A DNA stretch of 40,011 nucleotides from a virus. Made by a program: the position numbers and the translations under genes. Under the pieces are notes generated by a model. That model saw nothing but the letters and a program-made list of their open reading frames with translations. It did not search any database and was not told the origin of the DNA. Positions 4,419 through 40,011 of the stretch are shown in pieces; position 1 is the stretch's first letter; the number at the start of each line of letters is the position of its first letter. Where the stretch lies: positions 1 to 40,011 of the IMG/VR virus record IMGVR_UViG_3300027759_000178; one strand, 5' to 3'.

Positions 4419-4582
4419 TACGCACTCACCTCCCCTAATAGCTCTACTGTTTCCTCGGTAACATAATAGGCTTTACCTTTATCTCCATAAGAAGGATACA
4501 TAGGCAGAGATCCCTCTGCCTCTTCTGCTGAGTTAGCCCTTACTTCGATCACTTGCTCTACGCTGAACTTATAGGTATTCAT
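4418..4582 (-). CDS. AdSxeeA-type mini-domain protein (paralogue 2)
   Basis: A 54-residue product starting MNTYKFSVEQVIEVRANSAEEAEGSL. The RANSAEEA element matches IEADSAEQA of the neighbour at 4582-4737. The ATG at 4582 forms TAATG with the upstream stop; a longer in-frame start at 4624 lies inside the upstream gene and is not favoured. It ends in EVSA for the same ribosome-site reason as its neighbours. Confidence 0.72.
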   Translation of the reverse strand: MNTYKFSVEQVIEVRANSAEEAEGSLPMYPSYGDKGKAYYVTEETVELLGEVSA

Positions 4583-4737
4583 TACTCCCCCTCTATTGTT
4601 ATATCTGCTATATCGCATAGCCAATTTACATTAGCTTCATTGATAAGGTTACGCGCCTTATCCCTCGCTTGCTCTGCTGAGTCGGCTTCGATATTAGTGC
4701 CGTACTCAATAGATACTGTCATAATATATTCTGGCAT
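4582..4737 (-). CDS. AdSxeeA-type mini-domain protein (paralogue 3)
   Basis: A 51-residue product, MPEYIMTVSIEYG then IEADSAEQARDKARN. The beta-strand followed by the AdSxEqA helix start is the same fold signature as the two genes downstream. The start has the leftward unit's typical ribosome site AAGGGGTA. It is the first gene after RNA element A. Confidence 0.74.
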   Translation of the reverse strand: MPEYIMTVSIEYGTNIEADSAEQARDKARNLINEANVNWLCDIADITIEGE

Positions 4738-4761
4738 ATCTACCCCTTACCCTGCTCTCTC

Positions 4762-4841
4762 CCTCTCCCACTATGGGAGCTGGTCGTAACCATAAGGCTA
4801 CGCTCTAAGGCTAGGATAATCAACTACCCTAGCCCTAGCGT
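4762..4841 (-). ncRNA. Structured 5'-UTR RNA element, copy A
   Basis: On the leftward transcript this 80-nt element has a long hairpin (arms 4800-4815 and 4828-4841, 12-nt loop) followed by a short one (CTCCCA/TGGGAG, 4765-4779). Copy B at 6281-6360 aligns without any gap. The outer ACGCT/AGCGT pairs, the loop and the short hairpin are conserved, while most of the nine inner pairs differ with pairing kept; one pair here becomes G-U only in the leftward RNA. It sits between the genes at 4848 and 4737, just before the AAGGGGTA ribosome site. Confidence 0.7.
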
Positions 4842-4847
4842 GTAATC

Positions 4848-5183
4848 TTATGCGCTTACCTTCTCCTTCTCTAGGAGCTGATCTACTAGCTCCCGTACCA
4901 TATATAGAGCCTTATTATGGTGAGAGATTAAGTGTTGATAGTTATATCGCGTAGCGATAGCAGTATTTATTAGCTTATTAAGATCAGTATGGAGCCTATG
5001 CTTCTCAAAATAGATCCCCGTAGTACCGGAGGGTTCAACGATACACTCGCTAATTACGCTCCAGTAAGCCTTCTTGACCCTATCGTGAGATGTATATACC
5101 TTCACGCGGTAGGCTCCTAGAGTATAGGTATCGGTGATCTTACGGTGAGCGTCATTACTTATCTGATTATAAATTACTTCCAT
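4848..5183 (-). CDS. Protein of unknown function
   Basis: A 111-residue product, beta-rich at the start (RVKVYTSHDRVKKAYWSVISE) and helical at the end (ALYMVRELVDQLLEKEK). Not recognised. It ends in KVSA. ATG 5183 overlaps the upstream stop. RNA element A follows seven bases after its stop, so the element could also act as its 3' end. Confidence 0.75.
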   Translation of the reverse strand: MEVIYNQISNDAHRKITDTYTLGAYRVKVYTSHDRVKKAYWSVISECIVEPSGTTGIYFEKHRLHTDLNKLINTAIATRYNYQHLISHHNKALYMVRELVDQLLEKEKVSA

Positions 5184-5401
5184 TAGGCACTCACCGGCTC
5201 TGGTACGGATAGCCCGAAGATGAACCCTCCGCCATTACCTTCAGGATCTTGGGAGATCTCGATCTGCCCCGTATCTCCATTAGCGAACCTAACGGTGAAG
5301 GTAGGGAAGCCTTCTCCCTCCTCTCCCTCCATACCGCAATAGGCGAGTATTCTCGCTCCTACTAGGGAGGTATAATACTTATTCCAGTATTCATTACTCA
5401 T
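5183..5401 (-). CDS. Small protein of unknown function
   Basis: A 72-residue product containing FPTFTVRFANGDTGQIEISQD, probably a small beta barrel or sheet, and a glycine-rich segment (GNGGGFIFG). It ends in PVSA with GGTGAGTGCC as the ribosome site of the next gene. ATG 5401 forms TAATG with the preceding stop. Function unknown. Confidence 0.74.
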   Translation of the reverse strand: MSNEYWNKYYTSLVGARILAYCGMEGEEGEGFPTFTVRFANGDTGQIEISQDPEGNGGGFIFGLSVPEPVSA

Positions 5402-5571
5402 TACTTGCCCTCCTTCTCTAACTTATATTCAAGTAGCTTCCGATAGGTAGCGCAAGAGCAACTCTCTTGTAAATAGTCCTGCGCGGTATCGTACTCATCA
5501 CCGGTCAATAAAATACCGGCTTCACTCATTAGATCCTCCAGATCTTGCAACTCGCAAGTGATATTACTCAT
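5401..5571 (-). CDS. Microprotein with C-x-C
   Basis: A 56-residue acidic helical product starting MSNITCELQDLEDLMSEAG and containing ESCSCATYRKLLEYKLEKEGK. ATG 5571 has the strong site AAGGGGTAAGTA. It lies directly downstream of the large hairpin at 5588-5650. Function unknown. Confidence 0.72.
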   Translation of the reverse strand: MSNITCELQDLEDLMSEAGILLTGDEYDTAQDYLQESCSCATYRKLLEYKLEKEGK

Positions 5572-5587
5572 TACTTACCCCTTATCT

Positions 5588-5650
5588 ATTCTCCAGCTAA
5601 CTATTAGAAGGAGAATACCCTCCACTAGAGCTATCTAGTGAAGGATATTC
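5588..5650 (-). promoter_or_regulatory. 17-bp leader hairpin with an alternative pairing
   Basis: On the leftward RNA the arms at 5650-5634 and 5629-5613 form 17 uninterrupted pairs around a 4-base loop. Two of the pairs are G-U, allowed only in leftward RNA. A second possible stem, 5616-5610 with 5594-5588, shares four bases with the first, so the two structures compete. The element begins five bases after the clamp-like gene stop and ends beside the ribosome site of the next gene. It could be an attenuator, a processing site or a stability element. Confidence 0.65.
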
Positions 5651-5655
5651 CCGCG

Positions 5656-6255
5656 CTAAGAGGATATTCTCATAGGCATAATTAACGCACTCCACTTGAT
5701 ATTCTTATTCTCCGGTAATTGAACGGTAATAGGCTTACCAGCTCCAGAGAATATAAGTTTAATTCCCTCCTTCTTACCAGCTATCTTGCCATAATCTGCC
5801 AGTAGAGCCGGATTAAGCATTACTTCTCCGATAGGTGAAGGGTTACTGGTATCGGGGAATAGGTGATCGCTAGGAGGGAAAGTACCGGAGCATAATAGGA
5901 TCGTAAGTGTATTAGAGTTATAGGTAACACTTAGCATATCTCCTACGCGGGAGAGCTGAACCTCCCGCTCCCACTTCTCCTCCTTAATTAGCGTGATAAC
6001 ACGCTTAATATCTAATAGTGGGATAAGGCTAGAGGATAGATCTCCCTCTCCTACTACTTCTCCCTTAATTAAGCGATACCTATCGGTAGCGCGAGCGATT
6101 ATCTTGCCCTCTCCCGCTTCGATATTTACCGCGTTAAGGGTAGGGAGGGTACTATCCTTACTAACGCATAGGCTCACTCCTTCTAATAGCTCCCGTAGTA
6201 GCGTAGCCTTCACGCTAATAGTATCGGTAGCCTTCTCTTGAATTGTGCTAGTCAT
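5656..6255 (-). CDS. Half-size DNA polymerase III beta-clamp-like protein
   Basis: The 199-residue product has clamp signatures. TLPTLNAVNIEAGEGKIIARATDRYRL (residues about 37-63) matches the DnaN pattern 'LPvL..v.lea....l.atD', and the chain ends with ALIMPMRI, the typical clamp C-terminus. A bacterial clamp has three domains and about 370 residues, so one domain or more is missing. It may form a trimeric or otherwise altered ring, or bind clamp partners without being a ring. ATG 6255 has AAGGGGTAAGA upstream. RNA element B precedes it and the 17-bp hairpin follows. Confidence 0.8.
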   Translation of the reverse strand: MTSTIQEKATDTISVKATLLRELLEGVSLCVSKDSTLPTLNAVNIEAGEGKIIARATDRYRLIKGEVVGEGDLSSSLIPLLDIKRVITLIKEEKWEREVQLSRVGDMLSVTYNSNTLTILLCSGTFPPSDHLFPDTSNPSPIGEVMLNPALLADYGKIAGKKEGIKLIFSGAGKPITVQLPENKNIKWSALIMPMRISS

Positions 6256-6280
6256 ATTCTTACCCCTTATTTATTCTCGC

Positions 6281-6360
6281 CCTCTCCCACTATGGGAGCC
6301 GGTCGTAGCGTTAAGGCTACGCTCCCCTCCTCCGATAGTCAATCACCGGAGGAGGAGCGT
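6281..6360 (-). ncRNA. Structured 5'-UTR RNA element, copy B
   Basis: This copy aligns base for base with 4762-4841 (offset 1519, no gaps). The long hairpin has arms 6319-6334 and 6347-6360 with a 12-nt loop; its inner nine pairs are perfect and mostly different in sequence from copy A. The short hairpin CTCCCA/TGGGAG (6284-6298) and the linker with GGTCGTA and TAAGGCTACGCT are conserved. It lies 26 bases upstream of the clamp-like gene start in the leftward direction. Confidence 0.72.
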
Positions 6361-6366
6361 GTAGGC

Positions 6367-6468
6367 TTACTCACCCTCCTTCACACAATTACACCAGCCA
6401 CCTAAGTTTAACCTGCCACACTTAGGGCAATTCCAAAATTTATTCTTTAACGGGTCAATATCGCTCAC
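6367..6468 (-). CDS. 33-residue zinc-ribbon microprotein
   Basis: A GTG-started product with WNCPKCGRLNLGGWCNC, two cysteine pairs in 15 residues, a minimal zinc ribbon. GGGGAGGGGTAA lies directly upstream, and the start overlaps the TGA of the preceding membrane microprotein (GTGA). RNA element B begins six bases after its stop. Function unknown. Confidence 0.7.
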   Translation of the reverse strand: MSDIDPLKNKFWNCPKCGRLNLGGWCNCVKEGE

Positions 6469-6599
6469 TTACCCCTCCCCTCTCCCGCTCTCACTCTCTC
6501 TAATCCTTCTCTATGGAATTGCAACGCGCTAGAGATTAGGAGCGGGATCACTACCGCGTAGCCTAGAGCTAGGGTAAGGATCGTTAGAGATCTATTCAC
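6465..6599 (-). CDS. Single-span membrane microprotein
   Basis: A 44-residue product from GTG 6599. It has one hydrophobic segment, about residues 4-25 (LTILTLALGYAVVIPLLISS), followed by a basic tail ending RAGEGRGK. The segment is long enough to cross a membrane. The ribosome site GAGAGGGGTATCTA is good. It overlaps both neighbours. A regulatory or host-membrane role is possible but not shown. Confidence 0.68.
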   Translation of the reverse strand: MNRSLTILTLALGYAVVIPLLISSALQFHREGLERVRAGEGRGK

Positions 6600-6738
6600 T
6601 AGATACCCCTCTCTCTTGCTTGAATAGCCAGACACTCTCGCGTCGCGTGTAGCCGTAATAGGTGCGGGTCAATAGATAGCCGTCTACTATGTCGCAGATC
6701 TGCCACGCTCCCGCGTGGCTTAGCCGTTGAATTGTCAT
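6592..6738 (-). CDS. Microprotein of unknown function
   Basis: A 48-residue product rich in aromatic and basic residues (GYLLTRTYYGYTRRESVWLFKQ). GAAGGGGTAGAG precedes ATG 6738. It overlaps the downstream gene by 8 bases. Not recognised. Confidence 0.66.
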   Translation of the reverse strand: MTIQRLSHAGAWQICDIVDGYLLTRTYYGYTRRESVWLFKQERGVSSE

Positions 6739-6740
6739 CT

Positions 6741-6875
6741 CTACCCCTTCTCCATACCTTCGAGCGTGAGTACTATCGCCCTGATGATCTCCTGATCGTT
6801 GAACCCTTTAGAGCGTAGTTGCTCGATTATGGCGCGGGCGTAATCCTTGCCTAGTTCGCTAGTTTGATTAGTCAT
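6741..6875 (-). CDS. Helical microprotein of unknown function
   Basis: A 44-residue product, mostly helical: KDYARAIIEQLRSKGF then NDQEIIRAIVLTLEGMEKG. The arrangement could be a small helical domain that binds a protein or DNA. The ATG at 6875 has AAGGGGTAAGTA upstream and follows the GC-rich hairpin at 6914-6959. Confidence 0.68.
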   Translation of the reverse strand: MTNQTSELGKDYARAIIEQLRSKGFNDQEIIRAIVLTLEGMEKG

Positions 6876-6913
6876 TACTTACCCCTTACTTATCCGGCTC
6901 CTTGCCAGATAGT

Positions 6914-6959
6914 GCGCGGGTGGGGTATCGCTCCCCGCAAGGCTCCACTAGCCCCGCGC
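6914..6959 (-). promoter_or_regulatory. GC-rich two-level hairpin between leftward genes
   Basis: GCGCGGG (6914-6920) pairs with CCCGCGC (6953-6959), and inside GGGG (6922-6925) pairs with CCCC (6933-6936). It starts ten bases after the stop of the gene at 6969. There is no U-tract on the leftward strand, so it is not a plain terminator. It holds the same position, ahead of an AAGGGGTAAG start, as the other leftward-unit hairpins. Confidence 0.6.
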
Positions 6960-6968
6960 CATTACTTA

Positions 6969-7295
6969 CTAGGCGTTGATCTCCTCCTTATCGTCAATCT
7001 CCTGCTCTAGCTCCTTTACCGCCTCCGAAAATAGATCCGAATAGTAAAGATATAAGTCTAGAGTCATAAGCCGGAGAATATCCGGCTCCCCTTCATAACC
7101 TAACTCTCCTGATCCCCGATTATCATAATCGGAGGGCATCTCTCCCCACTCTTTAAGGATCTGGTAGTTATAGATAGGGAGATGACTATCTATGATCTCT
7201 CCTGATCTATCTTTAATCTCCTCTAGATCTCCTCCTTGTGATAGCTCTAATTGAATCTCCTCTTTAATCTGCTTAACAATTTGGAAGTCCATCAT
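6969..7295 (-). CDS. Acidic protein of unknown function
   Basis: A 108-residue strongly acidic product, with LPIYNYQILKEWGEMPSDYD in the middle and an aromatic/acidic end (LDLYLYYSDLFSEAVKELEQEIDDKEE). Acidic DNA-mimic and antirestriction-type proteins can look like this, but no motif proves it. ATG 7295 overlaps the preceding stop. Confidence 0.75.
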   Translation of the reverse strand: MMDFQIVKQIKEEIQLELSQGGDLEEIKDRSGEIIDSHLPIYNYQILKEWGEMPSDYDNRGSGELGYEGEPDILRLMTLDLYLYYSDLFSEAVKELEQEIDDKEEINA

Positions 7296-7543
7296 TACTT
7301 AATCATCTCCTTTAGTAGAGCCTTACAAGCTCTAGCGGTCTCCCCGCGATAAGAGCCAGCATTAGCTAGAAAATACATCACTACACTCTTGCAACTATCG
7401 GCATAGTAGCTCCCTTCTATGTCGTTGATCTCCTTCATAGCGTTTAGGTAATCAAGCGCATAAGGAGAGATATTTTTCCAATCGTTAGCGATCAAGTGAG
7501 CTATATCGCTTACCTTATATTTATCGGTGATCGTGTTAGTCAT
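7295..7543 (-). CDS. Conserved phage-type small protein, first gene of the leftward unit
   Basis: An 82-residue product with SYYADSCKSVVMYFLANAGS followed by YRGETARACKALLKEM. Proteins of this pattern occur in actinophages as short hypotheticals. GAAGGGGTAACTA precedes ATG 7543. It appears to be the first clear gene of the leftward unit; the region upstream holds repeats and hairpins that may control it. Confidence 0.75.
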   Translation of the reverse strand: MTNTITDKYKVSDIAHLIANDWKNISPYALDYLNAMKEINDIEGSYYADSCKSVVMYFLANAGSYRGETARACKALLKEMIK

Positions 7544-7565
7544 TAGTTACCCCTTCAATAGGCGG

Positions 7566-7649
7566 GAGCTATTCTCTCGCTCTAGTGATAAGTGTAGAGC
7601 TAGGGGTGAGCTTGTCAATAAGCCACGAGCTATTTAATCCGGAGCTATT
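7566..7649. repeat. Three direct GAGCTATT repeats
   Basis: GAGCTATT occurs at 7566-7573, 7627-7634 and 7642-7649, always in the same direction, just upstream of the first leftward gene. Between them GCTCTA (7579-7584) pairs with TAGAGC (7595-7600). These may be operator sites or part of a leader. No coding sequence is convincing in this gap. Confidence 0.55.
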
Positions 7650-25803: not shown

Positions 25804-27095
25804 GCGAGACAGTAATTGTCGTTGAGTCAATCACTCCACAGGTATCAGTAACTTTTGCTGCCGATCAGGGTCCACAAGGAACTGGCGGAGCCACCGGACC
25901 TAGCGGTCCGTCTGGCCCATCAGGACCTGTAGGTTTTACAGGAGCTACCGGTGCAACCGGACCTAGTGGTCCTTCTGGTCCTTCTGGTCCTAGTGGACCT
26001 TCAGGTCCATCTGGTCCGTCAGGACCAAGCGGTCCTAGCGGCCCTACAGGGGTTACTGGAGCCACCGGAGTCACTGGTGCAACAGGTCCTTCAGGACCCT
26101 CTGGTCCAAGCGGTCCTAGCGGTCCTAGCGGCCCACAAGGCATACAAGGTATTGTTGGTCCTACTGGTGTAACTGGAGCCACAGGTGTTACTGGGGCAAC
26201 AGGACCTACCGGACCTAGCGGTCCTAGCGGTCCTACAGGAGCAGCATCTACAGTTTCTGGTCCTACAGGACCAAGCGGTCCTAGTGGACCTAGCGGTCCA
26301 ACAGGAGCCACAGGTCCTAGTGGCCCAAGTGGACCTAGCGGAGCAGATGGTGGATCTGCTAACTATTATGATTACAAAGCAGACACAACTGCCACAACAG
26401 GTAATCCTGGAACCGGCGACTTACTTTGGAACAATGCTACGCAGATATCTGCCACCCAGATAAATGTAAACCACATTAACCAAGATGGTGTTGACATTGA
26501 CATCTTCTTAGGTTTAATCAAAACTAATGATATTTTAATTGTCCAAGATAAAAACAATTCTGCAAATTATCAAAAATGGACAGTATCTGCTACACCAACA
26601 ATGCAGGTTGATTATGTACAAATCCCAGTAAGTTTAGTTACTTCAGCCGGTACTGGAACAACAAACTTTGCAAACAACCATCCGTTGATTCTTGCAGTTG
26701 TATCAACTGGTATTACTGGACCAACCGGTCCTAGTGGACCTAGCGGTCCTACAGGTCCTTCCGGTCCGTCAGGTCCTTCAGGACCTTCTGGTCCTACTGG
26801 AGCTGCCTCTACGGTACCTGGGGCTACAGGCCCGTCAGGTCCGTCAGGTCCGTCAGGTCCGTCAGGTCCGTCTGGTCCTTCAGGTCCCAGTGGTCCAACT
26901 GGTACTACAGGAGCAACAGGAGCAACTGGCCCATCCGGTCCTTCTGGTCCTAACGGTACAGGCGATCCGGTAGTTGACTATCTTGATGGCGGTTCATCAC
27001 CAATTATTCCAGATGTAGTGTATGATTCGGGCAGTTCTACAACAGCATCCTGGACTTATACTATTGACGCTGGCGCTTCAATCGTGACATACTAG
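25800..27095 (+). CDS. Collagen-like fibre protein
   Basis: The 431-residue product has two Gly-X-Y regions, about residues 29-183 and 305-386, made of GPSG, GPTG and GATG units. They are separated by a globular domain (about 190-300) with [20 protein letters not shown], and [18 protein letters not shown]; domains of this type occur in phage tail fibres. The end is a short beta segment. Collagen-like triple helices form rigid trimeric stalks. It is probably a tail or head fibre for host attachment. Bacteria do not hydroxylate proline, so charge and repeat choice give stability. Confidence 0.9.
25892..26345 (+). repeat. Collagen-encoding tandem repeat, first block
   Basis: Nine-base units such as GGTCCTAGC and GGTCCTTCT code for Gly-Pro-Ser. 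Synonymous third positions vary, so the repeats are imperfect at the DNA level. The reverse strand also stays open for long stretches only because of this repeat. Confidence 0.9.
26712..26955 (+). repeat. Collagen-encoding tandem repeat, second block
   Basis: This second Gly-X-Y block includes a nearly perfect run of GGTCCGTCA units (about 26836-26876). That stretch is more uniform than the first block and may be a recent expansion or a slippage-prone site. Confidence 0.88.
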
Positions 27096-39794: not shown

Positions 39795-39972
39795 GTACGA
39801 AGTTATTGGTAGGGAACGAGTAGTCTATAAAGGTGTTGTCCTTGCTAACTCATCAGATGAAGCAGAGGAAAAGTTTAGAGGCTACTTAAAATATCCTACT
39901 GCTGTAAGAAGCTATGAGATGTTTGTATCCGGTATCGAGTTGGAAGTACAACCAGTAACAGAAGAAGAATAA
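39784..39972 (+). CDS. AdSxeeA-type mini-domain protein (paralogue 4)
   Basis: A 62-residue product. A beta-strand KYEVIGRERVVYKGVVL is followed by ANSSDEAEEKFR, the same 'A-x-S-x-eeA' element found in the three leftward paralogues at 4245-4737, and then FVSGIELEVQPV. Its last 88 bases are repeated at the left edge. Function unknown. Confidence 0.75.
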   Translation: MLNKYEVIGRERVVYKGVVLANSSDEAEEKFRGYLKYPTAVRSYEMFVSGIELEVQPVTEEE

Positions 39973-40011
39973 GTTGAATGATTTTAGGATACGCCGTAGT
40001 AAAAGAAGTTT
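39885..40011. repeat. Right copy of the 127-bp terminal direct repeat
   Basis: Identical to 1-127. It covers the end of the last gene and the first codons of the primase zinc-finger gene. Confidence 0.95.
39974..40011 (+). CDS. 5' fragment of the primase zinc-finger gene (continues at 90-452)
   Basis: TTG 39974 corresponds to TTG 90 in the repeated region and opens MNDFRIRRSKRSF before the window ends. It is the same gene as the one at 90-452 in the circle. Confidence 0.9.
   Translation, partial: MNDFRIRRSKRS

Follow-up and report, generated by a model that had tools for sequence, protein, structure and literature searches.

Two leftward elements of a phage genome, here termed WA and WB, are members of a larger RNA family, and it is near certain that the element is a selected RNA structure. 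From 5' to 3', the family core is composed of a strand "a" that bears a stop codon, a short linker, a long hairpin of 10-17 bp (P2), and, directly after it, a second hairpin (P3), the loop of which matches a by complementarity. These parts are conserved as pairings and not as letters, and together they span the distance from the stop codon of one gene to the Shine-Dalgarno sequence of the next. Functionally, we tentatively read the element as a portable, cis-acting intercistronic mRNA leader, sensitive to ribosomes and acting on the translation or stability of the next gene; we give this reading nearly an even chance, its mechanism being one that we infer.

The window, i.e., the whole stretch of DNA that was analysed, is the 40,011-base record IMGVR_UViG_3300027759_000178. 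Its ends are identical over 127 bp (1-127 and 39885-40011), and this terminal repeat indicates that it is probably a whole phage genome, circular or terminally redundant. A near DNA relative was not found in the INPHARED collection. The large terminase is 42-45% identical to the terminases of Streptomyces phages and to that of one unclassified phage, and this likeness suggests an actinobacterial host; the phages carrying the element are freshwater phages, probably of actinobacteria. Between ~8.3 and 2.7 kb, the window harbors small leftward genes mostly not assigned to a family, with the exception of a short beta-clamp. The latter is unusually short and matches mainly the central domain of bacterial clamps. 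A search for its relatives in GTDB genomes and INPHARED phages returned none, versus more than 100 in IMG/VR. Upstream of the clamp lies a 48-aa "YYGY" small protein (6592-6738, - strand); in several relatives, its homologues instead come immediately after the element located behind the clamp. Elsewhere, a long collagen-like repeat region made of 9-base units, GPS/GPT-like (25873-26957, + strand), lies inside a rightward gene.

The two 80-nt leftward copies described in the first-pass annotation are borne out: the reverse complements of 4762-4841 and 6281-6360 align without gaps. Its count of six differing positions with pairing kept, once as G-U, also holds, since six of the 14 pairs of P2 changed on both sides (one of them to G-U); two further pairs changed on one side only, and none is broken. 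In the energy-based register, the main hairpin reads CTCCTCCTCCGGTG/TATCGGAGGAGGGG in one copy and CTAGGGCTAGGGTA/TATCCTAGCCTTAG in the other. The arm lengths proposed earlier and the placing of an outer ACGCT/AGCGT helix stand as one of two possible registers, and the "TAGTTGAT-like" loop, then listed as conserved, is not conserved family-wide. Three features had been absent from that description. The first is P3, a hairpin inside the conserved 3' half, ahead of the CTCCCA/TGGGAG hairpin (CGTAGC-CTTAAC-GCTACG and CGTAGCC-TTAT-GGTTACG). The second is the complementarity of the P3 loop to a TAAG located just 5' of the 80-nt unit, the TAA of which serves as the stop of the upstream gene and occupies an identical position in the two copies (6367-6369 and 4848-4850). 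The folding energies of the 111-nt regions lie far below those of dinucleotide shuffles (z = -4.3 and -5.8), with none of 200 shuffles reaching so low a value, and the earlier claim that selection maintains an RNA structure in the leftward transcript, before genes with a conserved AAGGGGTA-type start, is upheld. The features concerned are as follows.

5656-6255, - strand: short beta-clamp of 199 aa, a DNA polymerase processivity factor; PHROG 12598/947, Pfam PF02767, PDB beta clamps at E 3e-14
6281-6369, - strand: element WB, leader of the clamp gene, from the 5' strand to the end of the third hairpin
6366-6369, - strand: WB strand a (UAAG), holding the UAA stop of a 33-codon upstream ORF (6367-6468); potential pairing partner, CUUA at 6312-6315
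6324-6357, - strand: WB hairpin P2, 14 bp, 6-nt loop
6304-6321, - strand: WB hairpin P3 (CGUAGC-CUUAAC-GCUACG), loop complementary to a
6284-6298, - strand: WB third hairpin (CUCCCA-UAG-UGGGAG), restricted to close relatives of the window
6261-6269, - strand: UAAGGGGUA Shine-Dalgarno motif of the clamp gene
4762-4852, - strand: element WA, serving the small gene 4582-4737 as leader
4847-4852, - strand: WA strand a (CAUAAG), in which the ORF 4848-5183 ends with UAA; potential pairing partner, CUUAUG at 4791-4796
4805-4838, - strand: WA hairpin P2, 14 bp
4785-4802, - strand: WA hairpin P3 (CGUAGCC-UUAU-GGUUACG)
4765-4779, - strand: WA third hairpin (CUCCCA-UAG-UGGGAG)
4741-4749, - strand: UAAGGGGUA Shine-Dalgarno motif of gene 4582-4737

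The remaining feature absent from the first-pass annotation is a third, weaker element, found by eye, which follows the clamp at a position where relatives possess a full element.

5575-5665, - strand: third element, with the clamp stop UAG (5656-5658), a 17-bp P2 (5613-5650), and a poorly formed P3
5576-5584, - strand: UAAGGGGUA Shine-Dalgarno motif of gene 5401-5571

The base of its P2 is UAUCC/GGGUA, as in other classes, and its minimum-free-energy fold also pairs the CCUCUUA around the clamp stop with the UAAGGGG Shine-Dalgarno sequence of the next gene. The start motif itself is unusually frequent: TAAGGGGTA occurs four times in the window, each time leftward at a gene start, for 0.33 expected. 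The UAAGGGGUA sites fall in the three element-bearing gaps and in the 6969-to-6875 gap, and a variant serves gene 7295-7543. The gaps 6875-6969 and 7543-7648 (- strand) share the same AAGGGGTAA start motif and display other hairpins, with no clear family members. The only promoter-like site within a leftward intergenic gap, TTGACA-16-TACACT at 7618-7591, is far upstream of the elements.

IMG/VR holds 118 clamp relatives, 80 of which were fetched, yielding 75 distinct upstream regions. When the pseudoknot is ignored, the P2-P3 tandem is found in 65 of these 75 regions. In relatives L075 and L098, the element is located one small gene further upstream, and L100 shares its intervening small gene with L098. 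Between classes, the letters are too divergent for sequence alignment, and it is the plan that recurs. A scan with a full-plan descriptor returned 71 distinct matches in 1.2 Mb and none in a 0.3-Mb Markov control; a relaxed scan returned 105 matches, 91 of them on the clamp's strand. In twelve long or complete records, this relaxed scan detects one to two copies each, all near the clamp, while other scattered matches are few and mostly lie within coding repeats; the element is confined to the early unit. A search that rewards pseudoknots is biased and was used for exploration only, the less biased approaches being those that look for tandem hairpins first or use patterns with a free P2 or a free loop. 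The class B pattern, for instance, fixes a, the linker, and P3 and leaves P2 as 28-58 free bases. It matches 56 IMG/VR contigs, some already seen, and all 30 distinct P2 sequences thus retrieved fold near full-length (-20 to -27 kcal/mol), although P2 was not used in the search. The same pattern has no match in GTDB genomes, and a direct DNA search of IMG/VR with the window's own 3' conserved block returned none. Rfam 15 gives no match at the gathering threshold on the window and on the loci of 12 relatives; permissive scans yield only chance matches, miRNA-type and similar, far below gathering. The first-pass annotation had named broken pairing in relatives, or a lack of further copies before leftward genes, as grounds against it; on the contrary, homologues keep the pairing, and many further copies before leftward genes were found.

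The pairing between a and the P3 loop shows covariation. In the 23 elements having a 7-nt P3 loop, read at fixed positions, this helix is 99.4% paired, a value slightly favoured by a selection that required P3 and P2 and drew in part on a scan demanding four a:loop pairs. Five of its seven pairs are doubly compensated, and sliding the partner by 1-3 nt lowers the pairing to 16-43%. The double changes and the sets found independently by pattern are safer evidence than the percentage itself. Examples are CUAGGUA:UACCUAG, UUAGGUA:UACCUAA, CUAGGUG:CACCUAG, CUAGACG:CGUCUAG, and CUAAGCG:CGCUUAG. Position-specific complementarity to the loop peaks 11 nt before P2, where 47% of the elements reach at least 4/5 pairs versus 1-12% elsewhere, with the exception of an offset of 7 nt (32%) that stems from a TAGGTAGGT repeat. 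When any position is accepted, the comparison with shuffled or swapped flanks gives a weak signal; flanks within a class resemble one another, and TAG is present in every one. Little a:loop complementarity is seen in class D, i.e., 13 leaders of the GGTTATC type.

Covariation is also seen in P2 and P3. Under a rule blind to pair type, P2 harbors 151 G-U against 38 A-C oppositions, counted over 66 P2 sequences that are not all independent; this count replaces a first one of 141:10, biased by a rule that allowed G-U. Since A-C oppositions are the wobbles of the opposite strand, the excess of G-U indicates that the sense RNA, in which wobble is about fourfold commoner than in the antisense, is the selected form. 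Throughout, related sequences do not represent independent events.

The complementarity between loop and strand a involves the stop codon. The two invariant a:loop pairs involve the U and the A common to UAG and UAA, and loops vary to match UAG, UAA, or UGA. The stop of the upstream ORF lies inside or touches a in 41 of 59 distinct elements; in the pattern-found set, 48 of the 56 contigs have an upstream ORF ending at the first or second stop position of the element (0 or +4). With the loop left free, the class C pattern retrieves 14 contigs, and in 11 of them the codon four bases before the motif and the loop correspond as UAG:CUA, UAA:UUA, or UGA:UCA. The remaining three pair if G-U is allowed, two of them having UGG at this place and a stop further upstream. 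In class B leaders of the clamp, stops are present in two or three of the reading frames. Genome compactness alone could bring a stop close to the 5' edge of the element, but it leaves the joint change of loop and codon unexplained.

Structurally, two competing nested folds are calculated, a long hairpin closed by the a:loop pairing on the one hand and P2 plus P3 on the other. Their energies are at most 5 kcal/mol apart in 49 of 57 elements, with a median difference of -1.6, versus +2.3 with shuffled 5' flanks. Upstream of the clamp, the a:loop and P3 helices are both supported; they may coexist as a pseudoknot or may alternate as folds of similar calculated energy. In the CCGG class, they do not overlap and could therefore form a pseudoknot. 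Alternation is likelier in the window copies, since GUAG belongs there both to the extended form and to P3.

Functionally, a ribosome that reaches the end of the upstream gene would cover a and disrupt the a:loop pairing, which would re-form upon its departure. The leader might thereby sense or reset ribosome traffic at the gene boundary, and could set, couple, or insulate the translation of the following cistron (the clamp, for example) and perhaps affect its stability. In its strict form, an "anti-stop" hairpin would pair its loop with the preceding stop so that termination toggles the next leader, and would define a class of ribosome-gated riboregulators undescribed in the open-access literature searched; we regard this form as possible but somewhat unlikely. 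The family provides dozens of natural variants, supported by covariation and placed before several phage genes, in which the loop changes according to which stop codon lies upstream. Exchanging stop codons and loops thus offers a direct test of what structured leaders between cistrons do in phage operons.

The genes located behind the leaders are diverse. Among the 56 class B contigs, the clamp is next in 25, the others being followed by members of the YYGY small-protein, TPAAVKRL, MKEDLDLR, and MYATKSAV families, among others. The WA-type element precedes three different genes in three close relatives (window 4582-4737, L103:2289, and L104:19183), as if small genes were swapped there. The first-pass annotation had suggested autoregulation by the clamp or by zinc-ribbon proteins, which is unlikely given that the same leader type precedes several unrelated gene families: the element is a portable leader and not a clamp-specific operator. 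From the end of P3 to the start codon, there are usually 18-31 nt. In nested folds, the predictions leave the Shine-Dalgarno region largely open (0.69 unpaired), and therefore simple sequestration does not explain control. Pairing of the window loop CCUUA with UAAGG was considered as such a sequestration and fails in other classes. An intrinsic terminator was likewise rejected, as no U-run follows P2 or P3 and the terminator scan lists none in the elements.

Besides the ribosome-sensitive leader, P2 and P3 might serve mRNA stability or processing by blocking exonucleases or being cut by a double-strand ribonuclease, thereby generating separate stable mRNAs with an indirect effect on translation. 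This is unlikely overall, yet it keeps a sizeable share of the probability. A stable hairpin of 10-17 bp directly after the stop codon is present in every class, and the scarcity of conserved unpaired bases is that of a mechanical structure; such a role alone, however, needs neither the covariation of the P3 loop with the 5' strand nor a fixed spacing to the next start codon.

It is distinctly less probable that the element is the operator of a common RNA-binding protein, from phage or host, co-regulating early genes as one regulator with several operators. The same leader does precede several gene families in related phages, the base of P2 (CUAUC/GGURG, with frequent U-G wobble) recurs across classes, and gp32 of T4 offers the precedent of a structure-recognising repressor (PMC535899). 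The candidate protein is, however, only hypothetical, the letters vary strongly, even within one genome, and a clamp-only version is contradicted by the copies before other genes.

A feature acting at the DNA level (cruciform, recombination hot spot, or DNA-protein site) that would ease the modular exchange of small genes, with an incidental RNA pairing, is very improbable. It would account for the different genes after the same WA-type element in closely related phages, and stops in two to three frames would suit many upstream genes, but it is at odds with the bias to G-U over A-C (151:38), the single orientation relative to transcription (91 of 105 matches), and the restriction to the early unit. 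Finally, for all their compact pseudoknot-like architecture upstream of genes, a metabolite riboswitch, a self-cleaving ribozyme, or a free sRNA, the first and last of which had been put forward earlier, is the least probable of all: an invariant unpaired core is missing (the linkers GGUGA, CGAGA, GCGUA, CUACA, and GUUAU are all found, and almost no unpaired nucleotide is conserved between classes), Rfam holds no match, and an element that fills the gap from stop to Shine-Dalgarno sequence leaves no room for an sRNA promoter of its own, the only promoter-like intergenic site being far upstream.

Among known systems, the coupling pseudoknot of plasmid repY-repZ is one in which upstream termination alters RNA pairing, and hence downstream translation, the pseudoknot activating repZ once another stem is opened. 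In the ribosome-sensitive leader, upstream termination would similarly alter the pairing; unlike in repY-repZ, the stop codon itself is part of the pairing strand.

The T4/RB69 gene 32 translational operator is a pseudoknotted mRNA leader of a phage DNA-replication gene, placed immediately ahead of its Shine-Dalgarno region, and unstructured RNA separates the pseudoknot from the start (PMC535899, PMC3014915). The clamp leader, which may form a pseudoknot, occupies a comparable position. In T4, the 5' end of this pseudoknot overlaps the upstream reading frame segG (PMC535899, PMC3014915). The present element differs by its additional long hairpin P2, by a loop that pairs with the upstream stop, and by widely varying letters. 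The UUAAA/UAAA repeats found 3' of the T4 pseudoknot are absent, the downstream stretch being purine-rich (AAGGGGUAA, GAGAGAGAA). An operator of the T4 type is bound by the product of its own gene; the position of the present leader before several unrelated genes argues against such a gene-specific operator.

In their distribution, the elements resemble the Start-Associated Sequences (SAS) and Extended SAS (ESAS), portable features that recur between genes, immediately before start codons, in mycobacteriophages of Cluster K and Microbacterium phages of Cluster EF (PMC3203893, PMC7302621). Both precede a subset of non-structural genes from different families and accompany an unusually conserved Shine-Dalgarno motif, here TAAGGGGTA. 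For Cluster K, RNA pairing was found not to be supported by the inverted repeats, and DNA binding was preferred (PMC3203893), whereas covariation supports an RNA fold here. The Cluster K consensus GGGATAGGAGCCC with its 17-bp inverted repeats is not found in the elements, which differ in sequence and layout and whose arms covary as RNA. STAXI (RF01728) consists of repeated pseudoknots near genes of DNA-handling proteins (PMC2864571), but it is an enterobacterial motif of two or three tandem pseudoknots, arranged differently, and scanning two loci of two elements each with its model gives no match at E≤5. The nearest mechanism is thus that of the T4 gene 32 pseudoknot and the nearest distribution that of SAS/ESAS, both as likenesses and not as claims of membership.
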